Origin: Candidatus Aminicenantes bacterium JdFR-78
GTDB taxonomy: Bacteria; Acidobacteriota; Aminicenantia; JdFR-78
DNA: 64,000 bases
Direction of reading: 5' to 3'
Assembly: GCA_002010665.1 (NCBI GenBank)
Contig: MTON01000013.1
Span: 1-64,000, forward strand
The notes below the pieces were generated by a model that was given only the letters and a program-made list of their open reading frames with translations, made no database searches and had not been told where the DNA came from. Of this stretch, positions 11,015 through 44,566 are shown one piece after another. The position numbers and the translations under genes are program-made. Every line of letters starts with the position of its first letter. Position 1 is the stretch's first letter.

Positions 11015-11060
11015 TTTTAGTCTTTTAACTTTTTCCCGATTGACAATTGACTTAGATTAA

Positions 11061-11459
11061 CTAATAAATTAAATAAATATCAGTAATTTTTTGGATTTCT
11101 TTAAAATGCTCATCTAAAGTAAAAATTTGACATCCATGTTCTTGAGCTATAATGGCAATATAACAATCTATTAAATTTATAGTTTTGCCCTTCTTTTTTA
11201 AATTATAAGAAAGTCTTCCAGCTTTTATCCAAGTATCTTCTTTTTGGTCAATAATATTAAAAGCATCAATGAAATCCTTTATTACAGAAATCTCTCGTTC
11301 TGATTTAGCCCCTTGAATTAATTCAGCAATGATTATCTTTGGAACATAAATTTCGTCCTCAGAAAGTATTTTATCTACTTTTTCTGAAAGATTAGATGAT
11401 TTGTTTCTGAAATAATCTATCCAGACTGAAGTGTCTATCAAAATTTTTTTACCGTTCAT
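11061..11459 (-). CDS. PIN-domain ribonuclease toxin, VapC family
   Basis: 'ILIDTSVWIDYFR', 'LIDCYIAIIAQEHGCQIFTLDEHF' PIN motifs; overlaps upstream antitoxin. Confidence 0.88.
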   Translation of the reverse strand: MNGKKILIDTSVWIDYFRNKSSNLSEKVDKILSEDEIYVPKIIIAELIQGAKSEREISVIKDFIDAFNIIDQKEDTWIKAGRLSYNLKKKGKTINLIDCYIAIIAQEHGCQIFTLDEHFKEIQKITDIYLIY

Positions 11460-11658
11460 AATGTCTTATCTCCTCAGCTGTAAGATCAAATTCCAATTTA
11501 CCTTTCATTGATTTTATTTTTTCTATCTTTCTTCGTCTAAGATATTCGTTAATAGCTTTTTTCACTGCAGAAGCTTTGCTCTTTGCTTTTGTTTCTTTTA
11601 AAAGTTCATCCAGAATTTCTTTCTCAATGGTTACTGTAGCTCTCATAATGCACCTCAT
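11449..11658 (-). CDS. VapB-type antitoxin (ribbon-helix-helix)
   Basis: 'MRATVTIEKEILDELLKETKAKSKASAVKKAINEYLRRRKIEKI'; overlaps vapC-like ORF. Start may be internal Met5. Confidence 0.82.
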   Translation of the reverse strand: MRCIMRATVTIEKEILDELLKETKAKSKASAVKKAINEYLRRRKIEKIKSMKGKLEFDLTAEEIRHYER

Positions 11659-11950
11659 TTAATAACTTATGCACAATTAATTATAATAAAATAATTCATT
11701 TTGTCAAGTTAATTTTGAATTTTAAATACATAATTTTATTTCAAATTATTGTGTATATTCAAATCACAATTTTCCCTAAAAATTCAAATATGACTTCTCA
11801 TGCGAAAACCTTATACCAAAATATCATGAAGCAATCTTTACAATTGCCCAATAACTATTGACCAATAACAAAACAGAGTGGGGGATAAAAAGGAAAAGGA
11901 ATACTAAAGAGACGAAAATTTTATGGAGGGAGGGATTTATTTGAAGAAAT

Positions 11951-13120
11951 TTATTTGATAATTTTGATTAATCTAAACGATAATTTTTTTAAAAATGCGA
12001 GTAATAAATCACTGTGCCAATCAAAATCTCCCTTATCTTTAACAAGAGGTAAAATTCCGTCACTCTGTATTATTTTAAACAAATTTTCAATTTGACTATC
12101 ATTAAGCTTTCCACACAATTTTCTTGCATAATATCCAATTAAAATTTCTTTTTTTAATGCTTTTTTCCATAATTTTTCATATTCAGAAAGTGCTCTTTCA
12201 CTAAAATCTCCTTCATTAAATCTTTTAAGAATAACTTGACTTGCAAATTCTGAACACAGGAGGCCATAATAAATTCCACCTCCAGTTGTGGTTTTCACCT
12301 GAGCTGCTGCTTCTCCTACTGTTAATACTCTATTACCATAGGTCTTTGATATTAATCCTTGGGCAATAGGTTTGAATTGAATTCTTTCTTTTTTAAGACT
12401 TCTTATTTTATCAGGAAAGAATTTCTCAATAAGTCTTCTAAAACACTCTTTTGGATTACCTTCTGTCATTAATCCTACTCTTACTGTTTCTTTTCCAATT
12501 GGAACAACCCAAGCAAATGCTCCTGGTGCTACATCTCTTCCAATAAAAACATGAGTATATTCACCATCTTTTATATTTAATTCCGCCTGAATACCCTTTA
12601 AAAAATTATTTGGAAATCCTAAACCAAGTTTTTTTTGCAATTTATAATTTACACCTGTTGCAATAATTACTAATTGAGATAAATATTTTTCTTTATATTT
12701 TCCGTTTTTCTTGGTAATTACTTCAACTGAATTTTTATTTATTATAATATCTTTTACTTTACTATTAAGTTCTATTTTAACTCCCTTTGAGTGAGCTTTC
12801 TCACCAAGATATCCGTCAAATTTCTTTCTATCAACTACATAAGCAAAACTATCTGGATGTTCGTAATTTAGATAATTCATAAAAGGAGAAATGACTTTAA
12901 CTTTTCTTATTTCTTTTAGAATTGAATTTTTAGAAAGCGAAAATCTTTTAAAAATATCCTTACCAACAATTCCAGTACATATTACATGCTCCCCAATTTC
13001 GCTCTTTTTCTCTAAAACTAAAACTTTTAAACCATTTTCAGCCAATCTGCGAGCAGTATTCAACCCACTTGGCCCCGCCCCAATCACTATTACATCAAAC
13101 ATTTTGTAGCGATTAGACAT
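11951..13120 (-). CDS. FAD-dependent geranylgeranyl reductase-family oxidoreductase
   Basis: 'VIVIGAGPSGLNTARRLAENGLKVLVLEK' Rossmann motif; 'VGEAAAQVKTTTGGGIYYGL'. True start is probably Met7 because codons 1-6 fall in a repeat array. Confidence 0.82.
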   Translation of the reverse strand: MSNRYKMFDVIVIGAGPSGLNTARRLAENGLKVLVLEKKSEIGEHVICTGIVGKDIFKRFSLSKNSILKEIRKVKVISPFMNYLNYEHPDSFAYVVDRKKFDGYLGEKAHSKGVKIELNSKVKDIIINKNSVEVITKKNGKYKEKYLSQLVIIATGVNYKLQKKLGLGFPNNFLKGIQAELNIKDGEYTHVFIGRDVAPGAFAWVVPIGKETVRVGLMTEGNPKECFRRLIEKFFPDKIRSLKKERIQFKPIAQGLISKTYGNRVLTVGEAAAQVKTTTGGGIYYGLLCSEFASQVILKRFNEGDFSERALSEYEKLWKKALKKEILIGYYARKLCGKLNDSQIENLFKIIQSDGILPLVKDKGDFDWHSDLLLAFLKKLSFRLIKIIK

Positions 13121-13191
13121 TAGCGTTTAGCGATTAGAAAATTTTTTTTTAGTGGTTAGCGTGTAGCATTTAGCAGTTAGAGGTTTCATTT

Positions 13192-13551
13192 TCAGCGATT
13201 AGAAATTTTATTTATATAAGTAGATAGGAGTTTCATGACTTCTTGGTTAAGATTATAAGCTTTTTCGAATTCGTTATTATTACAATAACCCAAATCAAAA
13301 CTTAATTGTAATTGAGTTTCAAGTTCTGCAGCAGAACCCAATGCAATTTTTAAATATTGATTATATTCCTTTGATCCACGCATAAAACCTTCCGCTATAT
13401 TTGATGGAATTGAAATTGCTCCTCTTCTCATTTGAGACACAAGACCGAAAATTTCTGTTTTTGGAAACTGCTCAGTTAAATCATAAATTAATTTTACCAA
13501 TTCATAACTTTTCTTATATGCTATAAGCTCTTTATAACTTTTTACTTTCAT
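13192..13551 (-). CDS. Four-helix-bundle protein (23S rRNA intervening-sequence protein/Avd-like family)
   Basis: 'SYKELIAYKKSYELVKLIYDLTEQFPKTEIFGLVSQMRRGAISIPSNIAEGFMRGSKEYNQYLKIALGSAAELETQL' family signature. Confidence 0.9.
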   Translation of the reverse strand: MKVKSYKELIAYKKSYELVKLIYDLTEQFPKTEIFGLVSQMRRGAISIPSNIAEGFMRGSKEYNQYLKIALGSAAELETQLQLSFDLGYCNNNEFEKAYNLNQEVMKLLSTYINKISNR

Positions 13552-13630
13552 TTCATTAGAGGTTAGTGTTTAGCGTGTAGCGATTAGATATAAAAAACAC
13601 ATTGTGGTCTGCTTGACTAATCGCTATTCG

Positions 13631-14605
13631 CTATTTAGTCAAAAATACAAGTATTGCGATGATTCCGAAAATCGCTTCAATTCCCATCAGGGTGAGTACT
13701 AAATTTCTTTCGCTGATTCCACCTGTAATTTTCATCATAAATTGGCATAAACCCACAGGTCCAGATTTAGGGCAATATAGTTTACCATTATTATAAATTC
13801 CAAAACTTTTGGGTAACTTATTCGGAAGTTTTATCAAAAAATCCAAAAAATAAGGGATAATAATGATAACCCCTGCAGTTTCTATATTTCCCACAATCAC
13901 AGTAGATGCTATAATTGCTCCAATACTTAGGGTTCCTACATCTCCTATAAATATCTTAGCAGGATGCCAGTTATAATAAAGAGTTGCCAAAAAAGCTCCC
14001 AAAGCTATTATTAAAATAACAAACGCGGTCATTGATTTAGCCAAATAAGCCACAATAGCTAATGTAATTATTGCAATAGTTCCCATGCCCACTTCCAATC
14101 CATTAAAACCAGCAAGCATATTAACTCCATTTGCAGCTCCAGTTACTCCTAATGGTATTAGAAATAAAGTGTAGAAGGGCCCAAAATCAATAGACCCTAT
14201 GAAAGGAATTTTCATAGTTGTGTGACCAGCTTTTATTGCCATAAGAGGTAAAGCTGCAAAAAAAGGCATTAAAGTTTTAACCCCTTGTCTAATCTTAATA
14301 AGGTCATCAAAGATTCCAATTAATGATATCATTAAAACTGTTCCTAATACTGCTAAAAGAGAAACAACATCTAAGGGAATTTTATTATTTAGAAATACTT
14401 TTAGCCCTATAGCTAAAATAATTCCAGCACAGAAACCAGAAACTAATCCAAGTCCACCCATTTCAGGTATTTCAGGCATCCCGGGCTTATGCATATCCTT
14501 TCCCACAACCCCATTTCTTTTTAAAGCAGGAATTATCAATGGAAAAACCAAAAAAGTCACTCCAAATGTAAACACAAAAACAATCAAATAAACCATAATC
14601 TCCAT
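13631..14605 (-). CDS. MraY/WecA-like polyprenyl-phosphate sugar-1-phosphate transferase
   Basis: Multi-TM; 'NGVNMLAGFNGLEVGMG' and 'KIFIGDVGTLSIGAII' glycosyltransferase family 4 motifs. Confidence 0.85.
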   Translation of the reverse strand: MEIMVYLIVFVFTFGVTFLVFPLIIPALKRNGVVGKDMHKPGMPEIPEMGGLGLVSGFCAGIILAIGLKVFLNNKIPLDVVSLLAVLGTVLMISLIGIFDDLIKIRQGVKTLMPFFAALPLMAIKAGHTTMKIPFIGSIDFGPFYTLFLIPLGVTGAANGVNMLAGFNGLEVGMGTIAIITLAIVAYLAKSMTAFVILIIALGAFLATLYYNWHPAKIFIGDVGTLSIGAIIASTVIVGNIETAGVIIIIPYFLDFLIKLPNKLPKSFGIYNNGKLYCPKSGPVGLCQFMMKITGGISERNLVLTLMGIEAIFGIIAILVFLTK

Positions 14606-14617
14606 CCTCTTCCTCCC

Positions 14618-14770
14618 CCCTAATCGCTAAACGCTAACCACTATCCACTATAGCTACGAACCATGAGCTATAATTCCAGCAACCCACAAACTACATAGTC
14701 CTTACCCCTTAATCCCTAATCCTCAACAGTCTCCCGATTCACCCATTCACCCACTCACCCATTCACCGTT
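14618..14770. repeat. Degenerate 7/8-bp word array (CTAATCG-CTAAACG-CTAACCA-CTATCCA ... ACCCATTC)
   Basis: Read directly; contains 14700-14751, identical to 15514-15565. Confidence 0.9.
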
Positions 14771-14780
14771 TTATTAACAT

Positions 14781-15137
14781 TTATAACTTTCTTATCCTTA
14801 TCTTCTTGGGCGTAATAACAGTAAATTTATTATACAAAGATTCACCGTATTCATTTAGAATTTTTGCTAATGAGTTTGAGACATTTTTGTATTCCGGGTA
14901 TTTATAGCGCAAATAGATTACACCCAAACTTTTTTCTTTATGAGCAAAAATCCACTCTCCAAAATCTTTATCCTCGGTTAAAAGTAAAGCCTTATAATTC
15001 TTGGCTAATTCCAAGACCTTTTTATCTGAAATCCCTGGGTAATTTTTCAAGATGGAAATGATATTAAACCCTTTGTTTATTAAAATCTCGGCTATTCTGA
15101 AATCCACACTTTCATCAATGAGAATTTTAAGACCCAA
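14781..15137 (-). CDS. DUF5615-like PIN-like toxin
   Basis: 'LKILIDESVDFRIAEILINKGFNIISI' and 'LLTEDKDFGEWIF'; overlaps a DUF433-like ORF. Confidence 0.8.
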   Translation of the reverse strand: MGLKILIDESVDFRIAEILINKGFNIISILKNYPGISDKKVLELAKNYKALLLTEDKDFGEWIFAHKEKSLGVIYLRYKYPEYKNVSNSLAKILNEYGESLYNKFTVITPKKIRIRKL

Positions 15138-15360
15138 TCATCTCCTCCTGGGAAATCACATCTGCGGAATAAGAAAGAGCAGCGAGAACGTCTTCTTTTT
15201 TAAGATTAGGATAGGCTTTTAATAACTCTTCTATATTCATTCCTTCGGAAAGTTTCTTTAGTATTAATTCAACAGTTATTCTTGTGCCTTTTATCACAGG
15301 TTTTCCTCTCATTATCTCCGGGTTTGCAATTATTCTTTCTGCATAATGCAATGTGCTCAT
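15127..15360 (-). CDS. DUF433-family antitoxin-like protein
   Basis: 'RIIANPEIMRGKPVIKGTRITVELILKKLSEGMNIEELLKAYPNLKKEDVLAAL'. Confidence 0.9.
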   Translation of the reverse strand: MSTLHYAERIIANPEIMRGKPVIKGTRITVELILKKLSEGMNIEELLKAYPNLKKEDVLAALSYSADVISQEEMIGS

Positions 15361-15439
15361 TTTTTCCTCCTTACTAACTCTCTTTAAGCTTATTATATCT
15401 GACTAAAATCTCCAGTCAATTAATCTCTTCCAAAGCTCA

Positions 15440-15610
15440 TTAATTTACTAATCACTATCCACTATCAGCTACAAACCACGAACTATGAACTCCACCTCCC
15501 CCCTTCCCTTAATCCTTACCCCTTAATCCCTAATCCTCAACAGTCTCCCGATTCACCCATTCACCGATTCACCCACTCACCCATTCACCGACTCACCAAT
15601 TCACCATTTT
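15440..15610. repeat. Degenerate 7/8-bp word array; seven consecutive AYTCACCN octamers at 15551-15606
   Basis: ATTCACCC ATTCACCG ATTCACCC ACTCACCC ATTCACCG ACTCACCA ATTCACCA. Confidence 0.92.
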
Positions 15611-15621
15611 TAATCTCCCTT

Positions 15622-15966
15622 TTAAGTTATCCCGAGATGAATGAGAACCGCCTGTTCTACTTCTTTTAATTTTTCTTCTGTTATCATACTCAAAAATCTA
15701 ACCATTCTCCTCTTATCAATAGTTCTAATCTGATTACATTTTACTTTCGAATCCATTGGAAGATTGGTTTCATCTTTTAAAAGGAAAGTCTCAAAGGGAT
15801 ATATCTTTTTTGTTTTTGAAGTAATTGGAAGAACTGTTATAGTTTCTGCAAATTGATTATTTCTATTATTTGAAATTACTAATGCTGGTCTCGTCTTGCC
15901 AATTTCATGACCTATCACAGGTTCCAAGGAAACCAGCCAGATTTCGCCTCTCTGCGGATAATCCAT
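15622..15966 (-). CDS. MazF/PemK-family endoribonuclease toxin
   Basis: 'RGEIWLVSLEPVIGHEIGKTRPALVISNN' and 'VLPITSKTKK'. Confidence 0.92.
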   Translation of the reverse strand: MDYPQRGEIWLVSLEPVIGHEIGKTRPALVISNNRNNQFAETITVLPITSKTKKIYPFETFLLKDETNLPMDSKVKCNQIRTIDKRRMVRFLSMITEEKLKEVEQAVLIHLGIT

Positions 15967-15967
15967 C

Positions 15968-16189
15968 TCATTCCCATTCCTCTAAAGTAATATTTTCCCA
16001 CTCCTTATTAAGCCTCTTATCCTCTTCTTTTGTTGCCTTATAGCCTTCTATAAGAAGTTCATCCAGTTTCTTCTTTTCTTCTCTTTCTAATTTCTCTCGT
16101 ATTGCTTCAGCTATGAAGCGACTCTTATTAGGTTTACTCTTTAAAGCTCTATCTAATTCCTCTGGTATAGTAATATTTAATCTTTTCAT
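15968..16189 (-). CDS. Ribbon-helix-helix antitoxin (MazE-like partner)
   Basis: 'MKRLNITIPEELDRALKSKPNKSRFIAEAIREKLE'; directly upstream of mazF-like ORF. Confidence 0.85.
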   Translation of the reverse strand: MKRLNITIPEELDRALKSKPNKSRFIAEAIREKLEREEKKKLDELLIEGYKATKEEDKRLNKEWENITLEEWE

Positions 16190-16304
16190 TGCTTTACCTC
16201 TTTACTTACAATACAGTAAAAATTACATATTGTCAATACAGCCTGCTATATGTATTACCAACCTCCAAATTACGGGTATACCGTCATCCTTAGTCCCATT
16301 TCTA

Positions 16305-16495
16305 AGCTTTCCAGCTCCCCAATTCACCATTTCACCTATTCATCCACTCACTCATTCACCACTTCCTTCCTAATCCTTAATCCTTACCCCTTAATCCTTA
16401 TCAGTTTCCCGATTCACCCATTCCCCGACCCAACATTTTATCCATGCTAATCGCCATGAACTACAAACCACGAGCTATGAACTATTTTATAGTCC
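16305..16495. repeat. Degenerate 7/8-bp word array
   Basis: 'aattcaccatttcacctattcatccactcactcattcacc...taatccttaatccttaccccttaatcc...catgaactacaaaccacgagctatgaac'. Confidence 0.88.
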
Positions 16496-16859
16496 GTTTA
16501 ATTGCCTTTATAAGACTCGAAATCATCTTCCCTATTTCATCGCCTTCTTCTTTAATTTTGTTGTATTGTTCATTATTAATCCACTGTCTCTTTTTAAAAA
16601 TTTCTATTAAAGTAATAGTTTCAAACAAAGAGCCTCTTGCAATATACAAAAATTGAATAAATTCCTTTTTAGAAAACCTCCCTTTTCCTTCTGCCACATT
16701 CATTGCAATAGAAGTAACAGCAGATTCCAATTGTTTAACCAATTTATAATGATTTCTACTCGTTTTAAGATTATCAATTATTTCAATGACTCTATTCGCA
16801 AAATCAACAGATTTCTGCCATACTTCTAAATTCTCAAATCCAAACCTAATTTCTTTCAT
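16482..16859 (-). CDS. Four-helix-bundle protein (23S-IVP/Avd-like family)
   Basis: 'FENLEVWQKSVDFANRVIEIID', 'QLESAVTSIAMNVAEGKGRFSKKEFIQFLYIARGSLFETITLIEI'. Confidence 0.88.
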   Translation of the reverse strand: MKEIRFGFENLEVWQKSVDFANRVIEIIDNLKTSRNHYKLVKQLESAVTSIAMNVAEGKGRFSKKEFIQFLYIARGSLFETITLIEIFKKRQWINNEQYNKIKEEGDEIGKMISSLIKAIKRTIK

Positions 16860-16878
16860 AACTACAAATCCATGTTAT

Positions 16879-16959
16879 CAGCTATGAGCTATGAACCATG
16901 AACTACATAATGAGTTACGAGCTACGGACTATGAGCCATGAACTATCAGTTATGAGCTA
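16879..16959. repeat. 11 heptamer units, consensus GARYYAY, one 5-bp interruption
   Basis: CAGCTAT GAGCTAT GAACCAT GAACTAC [ATAAT] GAGTTAC GAGCTAC GGACTAT GAGCCAT GAACTAT CAGTTAT GAGCTA, read base by base. Confidence 0.95.
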
Positions 16960-18091
16960 AATAGTTTCTAAGTATATTAGTTATTCTGTCACTCGCTTTC
17001 CCATCCCCGTATGGATTAATTGCTTTAGCCATTTTTTCATATAATGTTTTATTTTCTAATAATCTCATTGTTTCAGAATAAATCTTCTCGCTGTCTGTTC
17101 CAACTAATTTAGCTGTGCCAGCTTCAATCCCTTCTGGTCTCTCTGTCTTGTTCCGCATTACAAGGATAGGTTTCCCAAGAGACGGAGCTTCTTCTTGAAT
17201 TCCCCCTGAATCAGTTAAGATTAAATATGATTTATTCATCAACCATACAAATGAGAAATAATCTAAGGGCTCAATTAAATGAATATTGTCAATATTACTT
17301 AATATTTTTCGAACCGGTTTCTGAACATTAGGATTAAGATGAACAGGATATATAATTTGGATATCATAATTATTTTTTGCAATCTTTTTTAAGCCCAAAC
17401 ATATATTTTCTAACTCTTTTCCAAAACTTTCTCTTCTATGTCCCGTAACAAGAATTATTTTTCGATTATCAAATGAAATTCTATAATTACTACAAAATTT
17501 TTGTTCAAGCATTTTTTGAATTTCCTTATTTTTCTGCTTCTCCACAACCATTAAAAGAGCATCAATTACTGTATTTCCTGTAATAAAAATTTTATTTTCA
17601 TCCACTCCTTCTTTAAGTAAATTTTCTTTTGCCCTTTTCGTTGGAGCAAAATAAAGATCTGCTAAACAATCGGTTAATCTTCTATTCATTTCTTCAGGAA
17701 AAGGATTAAACTTATCCTTTGTCCTTAATCCTGCTTCCACATGTCCAATTTTTATCTTTAAATAATAGCCCGCAAGACTGGCTAAAAAAGTTGTTGTAGT
17801 ATCACCCTGAACTAAGATAATATTCGGTTTTTCTTTCTTTAGCACTCTTTCCAATTTTCTTAATCCTTCCACTGTAATATCAAATAAACTTTGGTTATCT
17901 TTCATAATATTCAAGTCATAATCAGGCTCTATTTCAAATATATTTAAAACCTGATCCAGCATTTCCCGATGTTGAGCTGTTACACATACTATAGTGCTTA
18001 GCTCATTACTTATAGTTTTTAATTTTAAGATAATTGGTGCTAATTTAATCGCCTCTGGTCTCGTTCCAAAAATCACTATTACTTTATGCAT
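16946..18091 (-). CDS. wecB: UDP-N-acetylglucosamine 2-epimerase (non-hydrolyzing)
   Basis: 'VIVIFGTRPEAIKLAPII', 'VQGDTTTTFLASLAGYYLKIKIGHVEAGLRT', 'LTDSGGIQEEAPSLGKPILVMRNKTERPEG'. Confidence 0.95.
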   Translation of the reverse strand: MHKVIVIFGTRPEAIKLAPIILKLKTISNELSTIVCVTAQHREMLDQVLNIFEIEPDYDLNIMKDNQSLFDITVEGLRKLERVLKKEKPNIILVQGDTTTTFLASLAGYYLKIKIGHVEAGLRTKDKFNPFPEEMNRRLTDCLADLYFAPTKRAKENLLKEGVDENKIFITGNTVIDALLMVVEKQKNKEIQKMLEQKFCSNYRISFDNRKIILVTGHRRESFGKELENICLGLKKIAKNNYDIQIIYPVHLNPNVQKPVRKILSNIDNIHLIEPLDYFSFVWLMNKSYLILTDSGGIQEEAPSLGKPILVMRNKTERPEGIEAGTAKLVGTDSEKIYSETMRLLENKTLYEKMAKAINPYGDGKASDRITNILRNYLAHN

Positions 18092-18093
18092 TG

Positions 18094-18128
18094 TTATTAG
18101 TTATTTGTTATTCATTATTGGTTATTTG
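18094..18128. repeat. Five consecutive heptamers TTATTNN
   Basis: TTATTAG TTATTTG TTATTCA TTATTGG TTATTTG, starting 3 nt upstream of the wecB start codon. Confidence 0.95.
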
Positions 18129-18497
18129 TTGTTTTCTTTTGGAAAGATATTTAATATAGCCATTCAAAAGAGCAAGTCCTATAATTAATTTAATACTCTC
18201 CTCGTATTCTTCTTCTCTTATAAAACCTTCATCTAAAGAACAAATTATTTGGTCTTTTACTCATATAAAGAGCCTCGTGAATGTCGACAAAATTGGATAT
18301 TTTCCTGATAATGGTATCGGCCAAATCCTTCAGCAATATTATGAGTTATGGATCTTGCTGCTCTAAGCATATCATTTATCAACCGAAATTTTTTCTTCGG
18401 CAGGATATTTCGAAATTAATTTTGTTATATATCGCCTTACATCCCGACATGCTCTCCAACAGTCTAGTTCTTCAAAACTTTTAAAACTCTCTTTCAT
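18108..18497 (-). pseudogene. Four-helix-bundle protein pseudogene (two frameshifts)
   Basis: Manual translation across frames: MKESFKSFEELDCWRACRDVRRYITKLISKYPAEEK / FRLINDMLRAARSITHNIAEGFGRYHYQENIQFCRHSRGSLYE / VKDQIICSLDEGFIREEEYEESIKLIIGLALLNGYIKYLSKRKQQITNNE*. Confidence 0.88.
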
Positions 18498-18530
18498 CCT
18501 TTATCCTTTACACCTTAATTTTAAAACACA

Positions 18531-18561
18531 CTAATAACAATTAACCAATAACAAATAACTA
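18531..18561. repeat. Four heptamers, inverted relative to 18094-18128
   Basis: CTAATAA CAATTAA CCAATAA CAAATAA (reverse complement TTATTTG TTATTGG TTAATTG TTATTAG), abutting the stop codon of the epimerase gene at 18559. Confidence 0.93.
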
Positions 18562-19608
18562 TTTTGGAAGAAAATCGCGGACTGCTGAAGAAATTCCTGG
18601 ACCAAATTCCGCGCATGCATCGATTTTATTCCAATTATCTTTAAACCATTTAATAGTTCTTCTTATTCCCTCCTTAAATTCCATTTTAGGTTCATAACCG
18701 ATTAATTTTTTCGCTTTTTCTATAGAGGCTAAGAGTCTTGTTTTCGTATCCCACTTCCGTCTTGCCACAAATTTAATACCTGCTTTATTTCCTGTAAGTT
18801 TATTAATTAAATTAGCCAAATCTATAATTCTAATCTCTTTACTTGAAGCTAAATTCATTGCCTCTCCAATAGCGGATTCATAATATCCAGCTCGTAATAA
18901 TCCATCTACTAAATCACCTACATATGTGAAATCCCTCGTTTCTTCACCTGTCCCAGTTATAGGAAGCGGTAACCCTTTCATTGCCCAATAAATAAAATTT
19001 GGTATAACATTCCTATATTGTCCTGGAACTTCTCCGGGTCCATAAGAATTAAAAAATCTTGTTTTTACAATTTTTAAACCATAATGATGCCAGAAGAAAT
19101 TACAGTAAAGCTCACCAAGCATTTTAGTAATTTGATAAGGAGTACTTAAATCCATAGACATGAATTCTTCTTTTAAAGGTAAAGGCGCCTGACTTCCGTA
19201 GATAGAGCAACCAGAAGAAGCATATATAAATTTTTTAACTTTACAAAAATTAGAATATTCAAGGACTTTCAAAGTCCCAAGTCCATTTACCATAATATCT
19301 TTTTCAGGATAATCAATTGAATTTTGATTTGCAAAAAACGCTGCAAGATGAAATACAATCTCAGGCCTTTCCTGAAAAACTCTCTTTAAAGCAATATCAT
19401 CTATTATACTTCCTTTAACAAACATCACATTTGGAGCAGAAAAAATATTCCATTCATAACCAGATGAAAGGTCATCAAAGACAATAACAAGTTTTGCTCT
19501 CAGCTCTGATAATGCCCTGGTTAAATTACTGCCTATTGCTCCAGCTCCACCTGTAACCAAAATTATCTTATCTTTATAATATTCTTTGTAATCCATAATA
19601 GCCTCCAT
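18559..19608 (-). CDS. NAD-dependent epimerase/dehydratase (nucleotide-sugar, extended SDR)
   Basis: 'ILVTGGAGAIGSNLTRALSEL', 'YASSGCSIYGSQAPLPLKE', 'YQITKMLGE' (YxxxK). Confidence 0.9.
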   Translation of the reverse strand: MEAIMDYKEYYKDKIILVTGGAGAIGSNLTRALSELRAKLVIVFDDLSSGYEWNIFSAPNVMFVKGSIIDDIALKRVFQERPEIVFHLAAFFANQNSIDYPEKDIMVNGLGTLKVLEYSNFCKVKKFIYASSGCSIYGSQAPLPLKEEFMSMDLSTPYQITKMLGELYCNFFWHHYGLKIVKTRFFNSYGPGEVPGQYRNVIPNFIYWAMKGLPLPITGTGEETRDFTYVGDLVDGLLRAGYYESAIGEAMNLASSKEIRIIDLANLINKLTGNKAGIKFVARRKWDTKTRLLASIEKAKKLIGYEPKMEFKEGIRRTIKWFKDNWNKIDACAEFGPGISSAVRDFLPK

Positions 19609-20826
19609 TTAAAGATTTGAAAGAAGGGCTAAATACTTCTGAACGCATTTCCTTCTATCAAAGTGCTTTTCTGCATATCTCCTTCCCTTCTTTCCCATAT
19701 TTTCAGCTAAATTTCTCTCTTTATAAATCTTTAGAATTGCTTCAGATAATTCATCAAGATCACCGGGGTTAATAAAGAATCCGCATTCTGCTTCCTCAAT
19801 GATTCTTTTCGCATCACTTGCTGGATTTGCAATACAAATCACAGGTCTTCCTACAGCCATAATACATTGAAGTTTACCTGGAACAACAGGAGTTTTTAAA
19901 TTTTTATTTAATGTCACAAGACAGATGTCCGATGCTTGAAGCATTTCCTTATACAAATTAGGTGATTGGTGGGATAATAATCTAACATTTGTTAATTTTT
20001 TCTCTACCACAAACCTTTCAATGACTGGACGTGCTATCCCATCTCCTGCAAAGACAAATATAATATTAGAATAATTACGAAGTTTCTCTGCAATTTCTAT
20101 AATCTCTTCTAATCCCTGTGCAAAACCCATTGTCCCTGCAAAGGAAACAATGAAAGCATTGTCTAAATGGTTAATCTTGCGCCACCCATTTAACTTTTCA
20201 CCAGGCTTTAAGATATCGAGATCTATCCAGTTCTCAACTACATGGACCTTCTGTGATGGTGCTCCTCTTTTTACCAGAAAATTCCTATTTCCTTCTGAAT
20301 GAACAATTATAGCATGAACTTTTTTATAAATATATAACTCCATCCATTCAGCAAGTCTAATAAGAAATCTATTTCTTAAAAGTCTAAGGTCAATCACAGT
20401 TTGTGGATATATATCCTGTACATTCACTATTACTTTTCCTCTCCAGATTTTACTAAAAATATATCCTGAAAGCGCCAGAGGTAGAGGAGGAGAATAAACA
20501 ATAATAAAGTCATATTTTCCCAAAAATATACCACTCACAAGAAAACTAAAAGAGGTCCACAAATGATCTAAAGCCCTTGCTAGTGGAATGTGTTTTGGAG
20601 CAGGAAGACTTTTAATTCGATAAATTTTAATTCCATTTTTGCTTTCTTTATTAAAGAAAATTCCTTTTCTTTGTTTTACCCCAGAAGCTAAATATCGTTC
20701 AGGTATTCTTGTAAGGACTGATACACTATAACCTTGATTTTGTAAATCTTCAGCAAGCTCGGAAAAAAGTCTAGCAGCAGAGTTCAATACTGGGGGAAAA
20801 TCCTGGACTAATAAAAGAACTTTCAT
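19609..20826 (-). CDS. Glycosyltransferase family 4
   Basis: 'VLLLVQDFPPVLNSAARLFSELAEDL', 'SFAGTMGFAQGLEEII', 'GKLQCIMAVGRPVICIANPASDAKRIIEEAECGFFINPGD'. Confidence 0.9.
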   Translation of the reverse strand: MKVLLLVQDFPPVLNSAARLFSELAEDLQNQGYSVSVLTRIPERYLASGVKQRKGIFFNKESKNGIKIYRIKSLPAPKHIPLARALDHLWTSFSFLVSGIFLGKYDFIIVYSPPLPLALSGYIFSKIWRGKVIVNVQDIYPQTVIDLRLLRNRFLIRLAEWMELYIYKKVHAIIVHSEGNRNFLVKRGAPSQKVHVVENWIDLDILKPGEKLNGWRKINHLDNAFIVSFAGTMGFAQGLEEIIEIAEKLRNYSNIIFVFAGDGIARPVIERFVVEKKLTNVRLLSHQSPNLYKEMLQASDICLVTLNKNLKTPVVPGKLQCIMAVGRPVICIANPASDAKRIIEEAECGFFINPGDLDELSEAILKIYKERNLAENMGKKGRRYAEKHFDRRKCVQKYLALLSNL

Positions 20827-20840
20827 TACTGGTTTATGTG

Positions 20841-20867
20841 TGAATGAGTGAATGGGCAGATGAGTGG
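20841..20867. repeat. Octamer word array (TGAATGAG TGAATGGG CAGATGAG TGG)
   Basis: Read directly; inverted relative to the CTCATNNA octamers at 21254-21285 on the other side of the 4HB gene. Confidence 0.85.
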
Positions 20868-20880
20868 TTAAAAATATTAT

Positions 20881-21241
20881 TTACTTTTTGCTTTTCAGGT
20901 ATTTAATAAAGTTTATCAATCTTTTTCTGATAGTTTCTATGTCCTCAAAAAGTTTAGCATTCTGAAAAAATCCTAATTTTCTCGCTATAATGCATTGAGT
21001 TTCCAATTCTGAAAAGGAACCAAGCGCTACATAAAGAAATCTTAAAAATTCCTTATTACTTAGCCTTGCAGCTCCTTCCGCGATGTTTGAAGGAATTGAA
21101 ACGGCCGTCCTCTTCATCTCAAACCCTAGACCATACTTTTCCTCTTTTGGAAATTCTTCTACAATATCATATACATTTTTAACAAGCTCAATACTTTCTT
21201 TCCATATGTTTAAATATGTTTAAATCCTTATGTGTTTTCAT
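20881..21241 (-). pseudogene. Four-helix-bundle protein gene disrupted by a 10-bp tandem duplication
   Basis: Frame 1 MKTHKDLNIFKHMERKY*; removing one TATGTTTAAA copy (21205-21214 / 21215-21224) gives MKTHKDLNIWKESIELVKNVYDIVEEFPKEEKYGLGFEMKRTAVSIPSNIAEGAARLSNKEFLRFLYVALGSFSELETQ... Confidence 0.9.
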
Positions 21242-21253
21242 TTCCCTTTATGC

Positions 21254-21285
21254 CTCATCCACTCATATACTCATTTACTCTTACA
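21254..21285. repeat. Octamer word array overlapping the oxidoreductase C-terminus
   Basis: CTCATCCA CTCATATA CTCATTTA CTCTTACA. Confidence 0.88.
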
Positions 21286-23540
21286 CTTCTGCATTCTTTT
21301 AAACTTTTTTCAATCGCAAACGTTGTTAATGTAGTATAAACATATTCTTCAAAAGAAACTGGATTTTTTTCTTTTTTAATTGCTGACATTAAAACTTCCA
21401 TTTCTTTTCTATGACCTCTATCTATTCCAAACCAGTTTTTAATTTTTTTCTTCTCGCCTTTATAGATAAACTCAGCTTTTCTAAAATTATCAATCACTCC
21501 TACTGCACCTCCACCAAATATTTCTACTCTTTCCCTTGTATATCTTTTATCTCCTGACGCAATGTAGAGAATTGAGCCAATTGCACCATTTTGCATTTTT
21601 AATATTATAGACACATTATCACTTTCTTTATAAGCTCTTGATTCAAGATTTTGAGCAAATACTTCCACTGGCAAGGAATCTGTAAAATATTGAATTAAAT
21701 CAATAAAGTGACATACTTCTCCAATTATTCTTCCTCCTCCATTTTCTGGGTCGTGAACCCAATGCTCTGGTGGAACATAACCCGCATTTATAGTTATATG
21801 AATCGAAAGCGGTTCTTGAATTTGCCTAAATTTCTCTCTAAGCCAGACTGAGAAAGGAGAAAACCTTCTATTAAATCCCACCATTAAAATTGGTGAATAG
21901 TTATTGGTTATTTGTGATTGGTAATTGGAAATGATTTCTTTAAGTTGTTCTATATTAATGCATAAAGGTTTTTCGACAAAGATATTTTTGTTTGCTTTTA
22001 GTGTCTCTATAATAAAATAAGCGTGAGAGTCATGTCTTGTCATTATAAAGATAAGATTTATTTCTTTATCATTTAAAATTTCTTTATAATTAGTTGTAAA
22101 ATATTTGAAACCAAATTTTTTAGCAACATGTTGTGCTTTATATCCTGTAGCTGTTGCAACTCCTTTTAATCTTACATTTTCCATTTTCTTTAGAATCGGA
22201 AGAATTGTTCCAGTAGCAAAAACGCCAGCACCAATCACTCCAACCGTAACAACATCAGTCTTCATTCTAAGTGTTAGAGGTTCTTTGACTTTCTTTTCTA
22301 CCTTAATCTCATATTTTCTAACATTAATCCAATCACTAACACTAATGCTATCATCTAACACTTCCTTAGAAGGGTATTGAATTATTACTCCAAGAAAGGA
22401 TTCTTTTCCTTTTAAAATCATTTCATAGGCTTTTAAAGCATCATCTATTTTGAATCGATGTGTTATTAATTTTTTTACATTAACATTTCCTTTTGCAATT
22501 TGATGCAAGAATTCTTCCATATTTCTTTTTGCAGTCCATCTTGCATAGGCATAGGGATAATCAATGTTTTTTTCTGTATAAAGTGGGTCAAAAATTCCGG
22601 GCCCCCATGCTCTTGATACACAAAGCTCAAGTTCTTTCTCAAAGAATATTTTTCTCGGAATTTCAAGACCTACAAGACCGCTTGCTATTATCTTTCCTCT
22701 TTCCCTTGCGACCTCTGCGGAGATTTCCAGAGGCTCATTACTTTTTGTCGCTGCCATTATAATCACAGAATCAAAGCCTTGAGGCGCAAATTCTCTCGCA
22801 GAATTTATAACATCAACTTCTCTTGAAACTACACCTCCTCCTGCACCATTCTCAATCGCCATTTTTACCCTCTCTTCAGAAATATCTATTCCAAAAACAT
22901 GACATCCATTAGCCTTTAAAAGTTGAACAGTAATCTGTCCTAAAAGACCCAGACCTATAACAGCAACTCTGTCACCAAGAGAAGGATTTGCAAGTCTCAC
23001 TGCTTGAAGAGCAATACCTCCAAGAGCAGCAAACGCTCCCTCCTCGAAACTAATATAGTCATTAGTTAATCGGCTGTTGATTATTGGTTTATTTTCTCTA
23101 TTAACATGGCGTTTAGGGAGGTGGACGCATAAATTAACTGGAACACACACAATTTCAGCATGGGAAGCATAACTGCTTCCTGCACATGCTATCTTATCAC
23201 CTTTTTTAAAACTTTCCACTCCTTCTCCTACATCCAAGACAATTCCTGCACATGAATACCCCAGAGGAACTGGAATATCGAGTTTTGCCATAACCGCCTT
23301 ATATGTCTCCATAATTCCCTCTGCCTTTAATTTTTTAATAACTTGCTTAACAAGGTCAGGCCTCGCTCTCGCTTTTCCCAGCAAACTTTTCTTAGCTATT
23401 TCAAGCATATATTTTTCAGTTCCTACACTTACTAGAGAAGTCACATTTTGTACCAATACAAAACTTCTCTTTAATGCAGGAGGCGGAATCTCAACTAGCT
23501 GAATCTCACCCGTCTTGTAATTTTGAATTATTTGTTTCAT
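21255..23540 (-). CDS. Bi-domain oxidoreductase: zinc-alcohol-dehydrogenase-like + Gfo/Idh/MocA-like
   Basis: N-half 'VAVIGLGLLGQITVQLLKANGCHVFGIDISEERV'; C-half 'VGVIGAGVFATGTILPILKKMENVRLKGVAT' and 'EKPLCINIEQLKEII...VGFNRRFSPF'. Confidence 0.9.
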   Translation of the reverse strand: MKQIIQNYKTGEIQLVEIPPPALKRSFVLVQNVTSLVSVGTEKYMLEIAKKSLLGKARARPDLVKQVIKKLKAEGIMETYKAVMAKLDIPVPLGYSCAGIVLDVGEGVESFKKGDKIACAGSSYASHAEIVCVPVNLCVHLPKRHVNRENKPIINSRLTNDYISFEEGAFAALGGIALQAVRLANPSLGDRVAVIGLGLLGQITVQLLKANGCHVFGIDISEERVKMAIENGAGGGVVSREVDVINSAREFAPQGFDSVIIMAATKSNEPLEISAEVARERGKIIASGLVGLEIPRKIFFEKELELCVSRAWGPGIFDPLYTEKNIDYPYAYARWTAKRNMEEFLHQIAKGNVNVKKLITHRFKIDDALKAYEMILKGKESFLGVIIQYPSKEVLDDSISVSDWINVRKYEIKVEKKVKEPLTLRMKTDVVTVGVIGAGVFATGTILPILKKMENVRLKGVATATGYKAQHVAKKFGFKYFTTNYKEILNDKEINLIFIMTRHDSHAYFIIETLKANKNIFVEKPLCINIEQLKEIISNYQSQITNNYSPILMVGFNRRFSPFSVWLREKFRQIQEPLSIHITINAGYVPPEHWVHDPENGGGRIIGEVCHFIDLIQYFTDSLPVEVFAQNLESRAYKESDNVSIILKMQNGAIGSILYIASGDKRYTRERVEIFGGGAVGVIDNFRKAEFIYKGEKKKIKNWFGIDRGHRKEMEVLMSAIKKEKNPVSFEEYVYTTLTTFAIEKSLKECRSVRVNEYMSG

Positions 23541-37598: not shown

Positions 37599-37667
37599 TT
37601 TCTTTCCCAAAATAGCATTTAGCGATTAGTACCCAAGTATTTTCTCAATTATTTTTAACTCCTTACG
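37599..37667. repeat. Right copy of ~69-bp diverged direct repeat flanking the nucleotidyltransferase pair
   Basis: tttctttcccaaaatagcatttagcgattagtacccaagtattttctcaattatttttaactccttacg. Confidence 0.88.
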
Positions 37668-37697
37668 CTTTACTCTTCACGCTTTACAGAAAAAAGA

Positions 37698-44131: not shown

Positions 44132-44475
44132 TGGAATTATGCATTTTTTGTAAAATTCTAAAGAAAGAGATACCTGCAAAAATTATTTCAGAGGATGAAC
44201 TTTCCCTTTCCTTTGAGGATATAAATCCTCAGGCTCCTGTGCATATTTTAATTATTCCCAAAAAACATTACTCTTCTCTTATTGATATTCCCGAAGAAGA
44301 GAAGTCTTTACTTGGACATCTGATGATAAAAGCAAGAGAAATTGCAAAAGAAAAGGGCTTAGAGAAAACAGGATATAGATTGGTTCTAAATACAGGTAAA
44401 GATGCTGGACAAGCTGTATTTCATATACATCTTCATCTCCTTGGTGGCAGGGAAATGAGCTGGCCTCCTGGATAG
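44131..44475 (+). CDS. HIT family protein (HINT-like)
   Basis: '[20 protein letters not shown]', '[22 protein letters not shown]'. Confidence 0.97.
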
Positions 44476-44566
44476 TTATTAGTTCATAGTTATTGGTTAA
44501 TGGGTGAAAAAAATTTTAATTTTAAATTGTATTTTTTAGTTTTTAGCTTTTAATTTTTAGTTTAAA
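44475..44566. repeat. Two heptamer word arrays between HIT and hydrolase genes
   Basis: 44475-44502 GTTATTA GTTCATA GTTATTG GTTAATG; 44533-44560 TTTTTAG TTTTTAG CTTTTAA TTTTTAG. Confidence 0.9.

Follow-up and report, generated by a model that had tools for sequence, protein, structure and literature searches.

The stretch of DNA analysed here, 64,000 nucleotides of Candidatus Aminicenantes bacterium JdFR-78 (contig MTON01000013.1, positions 1 to 64,000; the window below), carries between positions 11030 and 21290 four of the seven PF05635 genes of this genome (23S rRNA-intervening sequence protein, four-helix bundle, 4HB), set among arrays of degenerate 7- and 8-bp words (Table 1). PF05635 membership was assigned by a match above the curated cut-off together with the S23 fold, and the AlphaFold model of 4HB gene 2 was obtained at a pLDDT of 93. 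Elsewhere in the genome, 4HB units lie between purL- and purM-like genes (L001) and between ileS- and lspA-like genes (L005), all named by eye from their translated ends. The window arrays are probably the arms, and the stranded arm remains, of a family of small mobile elements with one 4HB gene.

Repeat arrays and 4HB genes of the window

Window arrays were scored as 35-bp stretches in which 23 or more positions matched at a given lag; there were 12 such stretches at lag 7, 4 at lag 8, and 0–1 at other lags (multiples of 3, 7 and 8 excluded). The JdFR-78 genome was sampled in stretches covering about one third of it (samples of 464 kb and 852 kb). At a stricter threshold, 464 kb contained 26 lag-7 segments versus 2 in third-order Markov copies, and 10 lag-8 segments versus 1; in 852 kb, 43 segments were found at lag 7 and 4–13 at lags 4, 5, 10, 11, 13, 17, 19 and 20. 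A preliminary description of this DNA had reported arrays with an exact 7- or 8-bp period, which this excess over other lags and Markov controls bears out, and the arrays that it listed were recovered where it had placed them; its GATTGACAATTGAC array at 11038 consists of two words only and is not significant. Lag-7 arrays are mostly intergenic in 31 of 43 cases, though the sample is 90.6% open reading frame (ORF), and thus have the form of the degenerate intergenic heptamer arrays known as STRR. Lag-8 arrays are weaker and mixed (5 of 16 intergenic), and arrays at lags 9–13 are chiefly coding. Further arrays lie outside the 4HB region, at 2049-2082, 21889-21932, 37656-37687 and 44473-44563, the word of the last partly resembling, by eye, the arms of the ileS/lspA-gap element L005. 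A role of the words as stop codons in all frames was considered and rejected, as it fits several window words and fails for others, e.g. GGGAACA and GGAGTCA.

The arms of 4HB 3 are inverted relative to each other (score 51, null maximum 32), as are those of 4HB 4 (32, null maximum 31), and RNA folding of the 4HB 3 unit gave z = -5.5 versus shuffles. The arms of 4HB 1 are mainly direct to each other (score 41, null maximum 33), with a weak inverted match of 13113-13137 to 13617-13643 (28, null maximum 32). The 5'-arm word of 4HB 2, GCTCATA on the coding strand, also flanks its closest relatives (L028, L029, L032). Two smaller features were seen at these copies: a nested small inverted TAGCG pair with a spacer of ~29 bp at 13556-13643, beside 4HB 1, which resembles a miniature element, and, within the 5' end of 4HB gene 4 at 21204-21225, a 10-bp tandem duplication, ATATGTTTAA, downstream of which the listed ATG ORF starts.

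Composite arrays A, B and C surround the DUF5615-DUF433 and PemK modules in direct orientation. Several of their word types resemble, by eye, the words of the window 4HB arms, and these arrays may be stacked arm remnants.

Table 1. Positions of 4HB genes and repeat arrays in the window (a dot stands where no strand is assigned)
Feature	Positions	Strand	Basis
3'-side array of 4HB 1, word TAGCGAT/TAGCGTT	13100..13190	.	lag-7 segments 13107-13137, 13149-13185
4HB gene 1, PF05635, 119 aa, intact	13192..13551	-	Pfam E 1.1e-35; genome search
5'-side arrays of 4HB 1: TAGCG words, ~29-bp spacer, inverted words CTAATCGCTATTCGCTA	13549..13643	.	
Composite array A, no 4HB: TAGCG-, GARCTAY- and CTTAATC-type heptamers, then octamer ATTCACCC	14612..14768	.	
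Composite array B, direct copy of A	15443..15609	.	score 168, shuffle maximum 47
Composite array C, partial rearranged copy of A/B	16303..16445	.	array comparison
3' array of 4HB 2, same word as 5' arm, direct orientation	16440..16477	.	direct score 36, null maximum 26
4HB gene 2, PF05635, 125 aa, intact	16482..16859	-	Pfam; AlphaFold model, S23/Avd fold
5' arm of 4HB 2, word GARCTAY	16868..16964	.	lag-7 scan
3' arm of 4HB 3, (GTTATTN)n on + strand	18091..18135	.	inverted match to 18523-18561
4HB pseudogene 3	18136..18498	-	PF05635 match 18182-18400, in-frame stops
5' arm of 4HB 3, (AATAACN)n	18523..18561	.	inverted match to 3' arm
3' arm of 4HB 4, octamer TGAATGAG	20836..20867	.	inverted match to 21259-21286; TRF
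4HB gene 4	20881..21213	-	PF05635 match 20914-21213
5' arm of 4HB 4, octamer ACTCATNN	21254..21308	.	lag-8 segment
Arrays without 4HB, word TTTTTAG/TTTTTAATT	44473..44563	.	lag scan

Arm architecture, insertion sites and word turnover

PF05635 loci were compared in two sets, a first of 85 and a second of 65 drawn by phylum and not by similarity to the window proteins (150 in total). Arrays of 7/8-bp period were found on both sides of the gene in 101 of the 150, in many phyla, with the same word inverted in 78 and direct in 2; the first set contributed 57/85 (matched inverted 44, direct 1), and the independent phylum-wide set 44/65 (34 and 1). In 44 homologous loci, including those from Omnitrophota, Bacteroidota, Verrucomicrobiota, Geobacter, Chloroflexota and Armatimonadota, the arrays stand immediately before and after the 4HB gene. 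The usual arm pairs are one word and its inverse, such as GCTCATA/TATGAGC, GTTTTAG/CTAAAAC and GTAGCTGA/TCAGCTAC. Inverted similarity exceeded direct similarity in 48 of 51 loci with both arms, and its mean was 0.683 in the first set, versus 0.473 ± 0.013 in an arm-swap null, and 0.699 versus 0.463 ± 0.015 in the phylum-wide set. Neighbouring ORFs of the same loci, used as a control, had both-sided arrays in 5/74, and periods of 5, 6, 9, 10, 11 and 13 gave no comparable arm signal at PF05635 loci.

On the coding strand, the arm 5' of the 4HB gene is rich in G (G>C in 50/59 loci, and in 40/44 of the phylum-wide set), and the median arm length is 5.4–5.7 words, at a threshold that favours longer arms. 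A complete element spans ~420–600 bp and comprises about five 7- or 8-nt words in a G-rich array, the PF05635 gene, and an inverted array of the same word. The family was found in 98/198 genomes of this phylum, with up to 17 copies, and in 45/61 of a Bacteroidota sample; a phage origin was rejected, since a homologue occurs in only 2 of 50,697 phage records.

The best comparison of a filled with an empty site was that of Trichormus variabilis plasmid C (L218) with plasmids of Tolypothrix PCC 7601 and Nostoc linckia (L224, L225), in which the flanks are 97.9% identical and the 428 extra bases are made up of a 423-bp arm-4HB-arm element, with tips AAATCAGAATTCAGAAGTCAG and, inverted, AAAGAAGAACTCAGGAGTCAG, and a perfect 5-bp GTAAT target duplication. 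At the same site, L226 holds a decayed 4HB unit (1130-1300), deleted from mid-gene into the start of the next gene. A 506-bp insertion distinguishes L125 from the empty L132/L135 (flanks ~97%), its junctions sharing exactly the 3-bp ATG or, taken as five, TAATG/TTATG (4/5), and a 417-bp insertion with TTCTA at both sides distinguishes L133/L139 from the empty L125/L140; these two insertions occupy neighbouring gaps of one conjugation operon. Copies at unrelated places of the same genome (L077/L094, L046/L061) align over 562–573 bp only, from arm to arm. Breakpoints were placed at, or slightly beyond, the outer array ends, and not inside the arrays. The ratio of nonsynonymous to synonymous substitution was 0.08–0.14 in most usable pairs of different-context copies (0.47 for L046/L061), and the 4HB gene is under strong purifying selection. 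Mobility of the 4HB units is well supported.

Units were also found in CRISPR operons, between cas6 and cas4 of the type I-D operon of Anabaena 90, with another in Pseudanabaena galeata, and in Picosynechococcus the cas10-cmr3 gap holds the gene for a protein 64% identical to that of L133. The CRISPR-operon units (cas6-cas4, type I-D; cas10-cmr3, type III-B) are at L127 2980-3348, L223 2498-2857 and L221 1498-1854. L129, the relative compared with Anabaena 90 at the cas6-cas4 gap, has in place of the 4HB unit a different palindromic insert (AGGTTGGGTTGA ... AACCCAACCT; ~1913-2160). The 23S rRNA intervening sequence protein has been listed as CRISPR-linked (PMC10910872); given the units in the cas6-cas4 and cas10-cmr3 gaps, links of PF05635 to CRISPR operons (PMC10910872), like those to diversity-generating retroelements (PMC10053308), may partly be hitchhiking.

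The site 3' of one orthologous gene was compared in seven species of one genus (L198-L204). A full unit (AGTGACA) is present in one species, inverted arms without the gene in two (AGTGATG; CGTGACG; arm-only forms L202 and L204), and arrays of other words in four; the site is either a hot spot or one at which words are replaced in place. After the first inverted array pair, L199 and L200 have another one, of CACCAAAT / ATTTGGTG words. L130 retains both arms at the L123 site, and lacks the gene. L202, L204 and L130 are thus short and geneless, with inverted ends and kinship to a larger element, as are miniature inverted-repeat transposable elements (MITEs). Flavobacterium L047 and L050 share a common locus with different octamers, each matched between its own two arms, and these octamers and the seven-species site therefore indicate that words change while arms remain matched. 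In the Nostoc trnL intron, words of the heptamer stem are likewise replaced with pairing kept (PMC4476775). Arm-word similarity was 0.39 at 4HB protein identities below 20% and 0.76 above 80%, which would be expected if each 4HB recognises its own word; vertical inheritance of whole units would add to the trend.

Proposed mechanism and alternative explanations

The best fold matches of the 4HB model are S23 and then Avd of diversity-generating retroelements; five chains are present in each of the solved structures 2gsc and 2rld of relatives, and S23p of X. campestris is described as a homopentamer (PMC4990558). It is quite possible, though less likely than not, that the PF05635 pentamer itself confers mobility and directs strand transfer in what would be a new class of transposable elements, with the 23S rRNA intervening sequences (IVS), cyanobacterial STRR, and the paired arrays of Geobacter and Xanthomonas all being its traces. 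With the 4HB protein as putative mobiliser, the pentamer, as kin of the nucleic-acid-binding Avd, would recognise its own array. A ring binding one word per subunit is proposed because words track the protein, relatives are pentamers, arms have ~5 words, and Avd is kin; the agreement of five words with a pentamer is suggestive only. The ring would synapse the two arms, either as folded-back single strands or as paired ends, and cutting and joining could be an undescribed activity of the ring or that of a recruited host enzyme. Miniature arm-only forms would be mobilised in trans. Arms may be rewritten in place by slippage and templated correction between inverted arms, so that word and period drift and the arms stay matched. 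Elements could accumulate in operon gaps because insertions between the stop of one gene and the start of the next would be tolerated; strict sense orientation in operons was rejected, being not above background (same-strand neighbours 61/78 versus 83/117). IVS that bear S23 would be the same kind of element, inserted in the tip of an rRNA helix.

One class of mobile element is thereby proposed for bacterial heptamer repeats, the S23 gene of rRNA IVS, and uncharacterised 'four helix bundle protein' genes, as a transposition system without a recognised transposase, the end sequences of which vary yet stay matched.

Several findings weigh against such elements. Only copies 3 and 4 of the four in the window have clearly inverted arms, and because those of copies 1 and 2 are mainly direct, the inverted-arm rule is not evident from the window alone. 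About one third of PF05635 loci are without detectable arrays on one or both sides, and the same-strand neighbour excess of the elements is not significant. The 5-bp duplication is perfect in a single case, L125 shares 3 bp, and the junctions of L121 and L123 are ambiguous, so that 5 bp is a provisional length. No nuclease or transposase motif was recognised in 4HB, which matches S23/Avd folds only, and the match of five words to a pentamer is weakened by a detection threshold that excludes short arms.

The units could instead be passive, MITE-like passengers that depend for movement on an ordinary transposase from elsewhere in the cell, with 4HB as cargo, which we consider unlikely. Arm-only miniature forms do occur, and the 4HB fold is one without known catalysis; a single outside transposase would, however, not yield arm words that are very diverse yet track 4HB, and the units checked hold no sizeable gene besides 4HB, on which purifying selection acts. 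As to the enzyme, the reverse transcriptase domain RVT_1 is absent from this genome (7 copies of 4HB), G036 (10 copies of 4HB) and G017 (8 copies of 4HB), and Y1 transposase is absent from G017, DDE families having been outside the search. A reverse transcriptase acting in trans was rejected on the zero count of RVT_1 in this genome, and a Y1 transposase acting in trans, though widespread, was rejected as missing from some copy-rich genomes.

Movement at the RNA level, in which a transcribed stem-loop reverse-splices and is reverse-transcribed, in the manner of a 23S IVS placed between genes, is improbable. It would draw on the gene-in-stem anatomy shared with the Coxiella IVS (PMC4990558), on folding of units better than shuffles (z -2.7, -5.5), and on kinship to Avd. 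RVT_1 is, however, missing here and scarce in copy-rich relatives, the units show no significant orientation bias with respect to neighbouring genes, and the target duplication suggests staggered DNA cuts.

There is a slim chance that 4HB is a global regulator binding paired 7/8-mer arrays, with the arms as autoregulatory sites, in keeping with Geobacter, where paired opposite-strand tandem 7/8-mer arrays are annotated as global regulator sites (PMC2700814), and with TAACTGA arrays upstream of start codons, interpreted as translational control (PMC4679880). Regulation could coexist with mobility, but leaves empty sites, target duplication and arm-to-arm homology limits unaccounted for.

That the arrays are non-mobile short tandem repeats born of slippage (STRR-like), with 4HB adjacent by chance or for regulation, is very improbable. 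For cyanobacteria and Beggiatoaceae, degenerate heptamer arrays have been described that belong to no known element (PMC4679880, PMC4692102), and sister species carry different-word arrays at the same site; slippage nevertheless yields neither inverted word-matched arms around one gene family nor a 428-bp insertion with a duplication, and this account, contradicted at 4HB loci, may hold for some lone arrays.

The preliminary description took the arrays to bound exchangeable cassettes in a general gene-capture system including VapBC, DUF5615/DUF433 and MazEF, of which the boundary role stands for PF05635 only (both-sided arrays and filled/empty pairs), and the rest is highly doubtful: direct composite copies round DUF5615-DUF433 and PemK in the window are its sole support, toxin-antitoxin homologues in relatives are array-flanked on both sides in 1/52 (DUF5615 0/24, PemK 1/28; none inverted), arrays thus not bounding such modules generally, and the space around the window VapBC has no significant matched pair.

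Comparison with known systems

A literature search found no paper linking S23 genes to 7/8-mer arrays, preprints and most subscription papers being beyond its reach. Like insertion sequences, the 4HB units have inverted repeats at their ends and duplicate the target site, perfectly over 5 bp in one case and partially in others; a recognised transposase is absent, PF05635 being the only sizeable ORF, with an S23/Avd fold only. Eukaryotic Foldback (FB) transposons have terminal inverted repeats of short tandem units and different proteins. Avd of diversity-generating retroelements has the same fold as 4HB; the reverse transcriptase that accompanies Avd there is not found here, with no RVT_1 in this genome, and neither a template nor a variable repeat was seen, though no search was aimed at them.

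REPIN-RAYT systems (PMC3116915) and MITEs share short inverted doublets, non-autonomous copies, and word-protein pairing across genomes. RAYT is a Y1 tyrosine transposase, whereas the gene between the arms of 4HB units is PF05635, a four-helix bundle without known catalytic motif, the arms are of tandem words, and no Y1 transposase is paired with them, Y1 being absent from G017.

The P6b stem of the cyanobacterial trnL intron (PMC4476775) shares inverted pairing heptamers (TDNGATT or NNTGAGT) and repeated in-place word replacement, and differs in lying within a group I intron, with a geneless loop. STRR, TAACTGA and GGGAATC arrays (PMC4679880, PMC4692102) and the paired arrays of Geobacter (PMC2700814) share degenerate 7/8-nt intergenic words, often in convergent pairs; the accessible text of these descriptions mentions neither S23/4HB genes nor unit mobility, whereas here the arrays are read as arms or remnants of elements.

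A similar anatomy is that of the 23S rRNA IVS with an S23 ORF (Leptospira, Coxiella; PMC4990558), called a selfish element of unexplained origin (PMC4990558), in which a PF05635/S23 gene likewise lies within stem-forming complementary ends, an arrangement that in the window is clear for copies 3 and 4 only. Unlike these IVS, 4HB units are intergenic between protein genes and not within the 23S rRNA gene, have arms of tandem 7/8-nt words, occur in many copies and with many words per genome, and show empty sites and target duplication. We conclude that the 4HB units are small mobile elements, in effect intergenic S23 intervening sequences, and that the window arrays are probably their arms and remnants.

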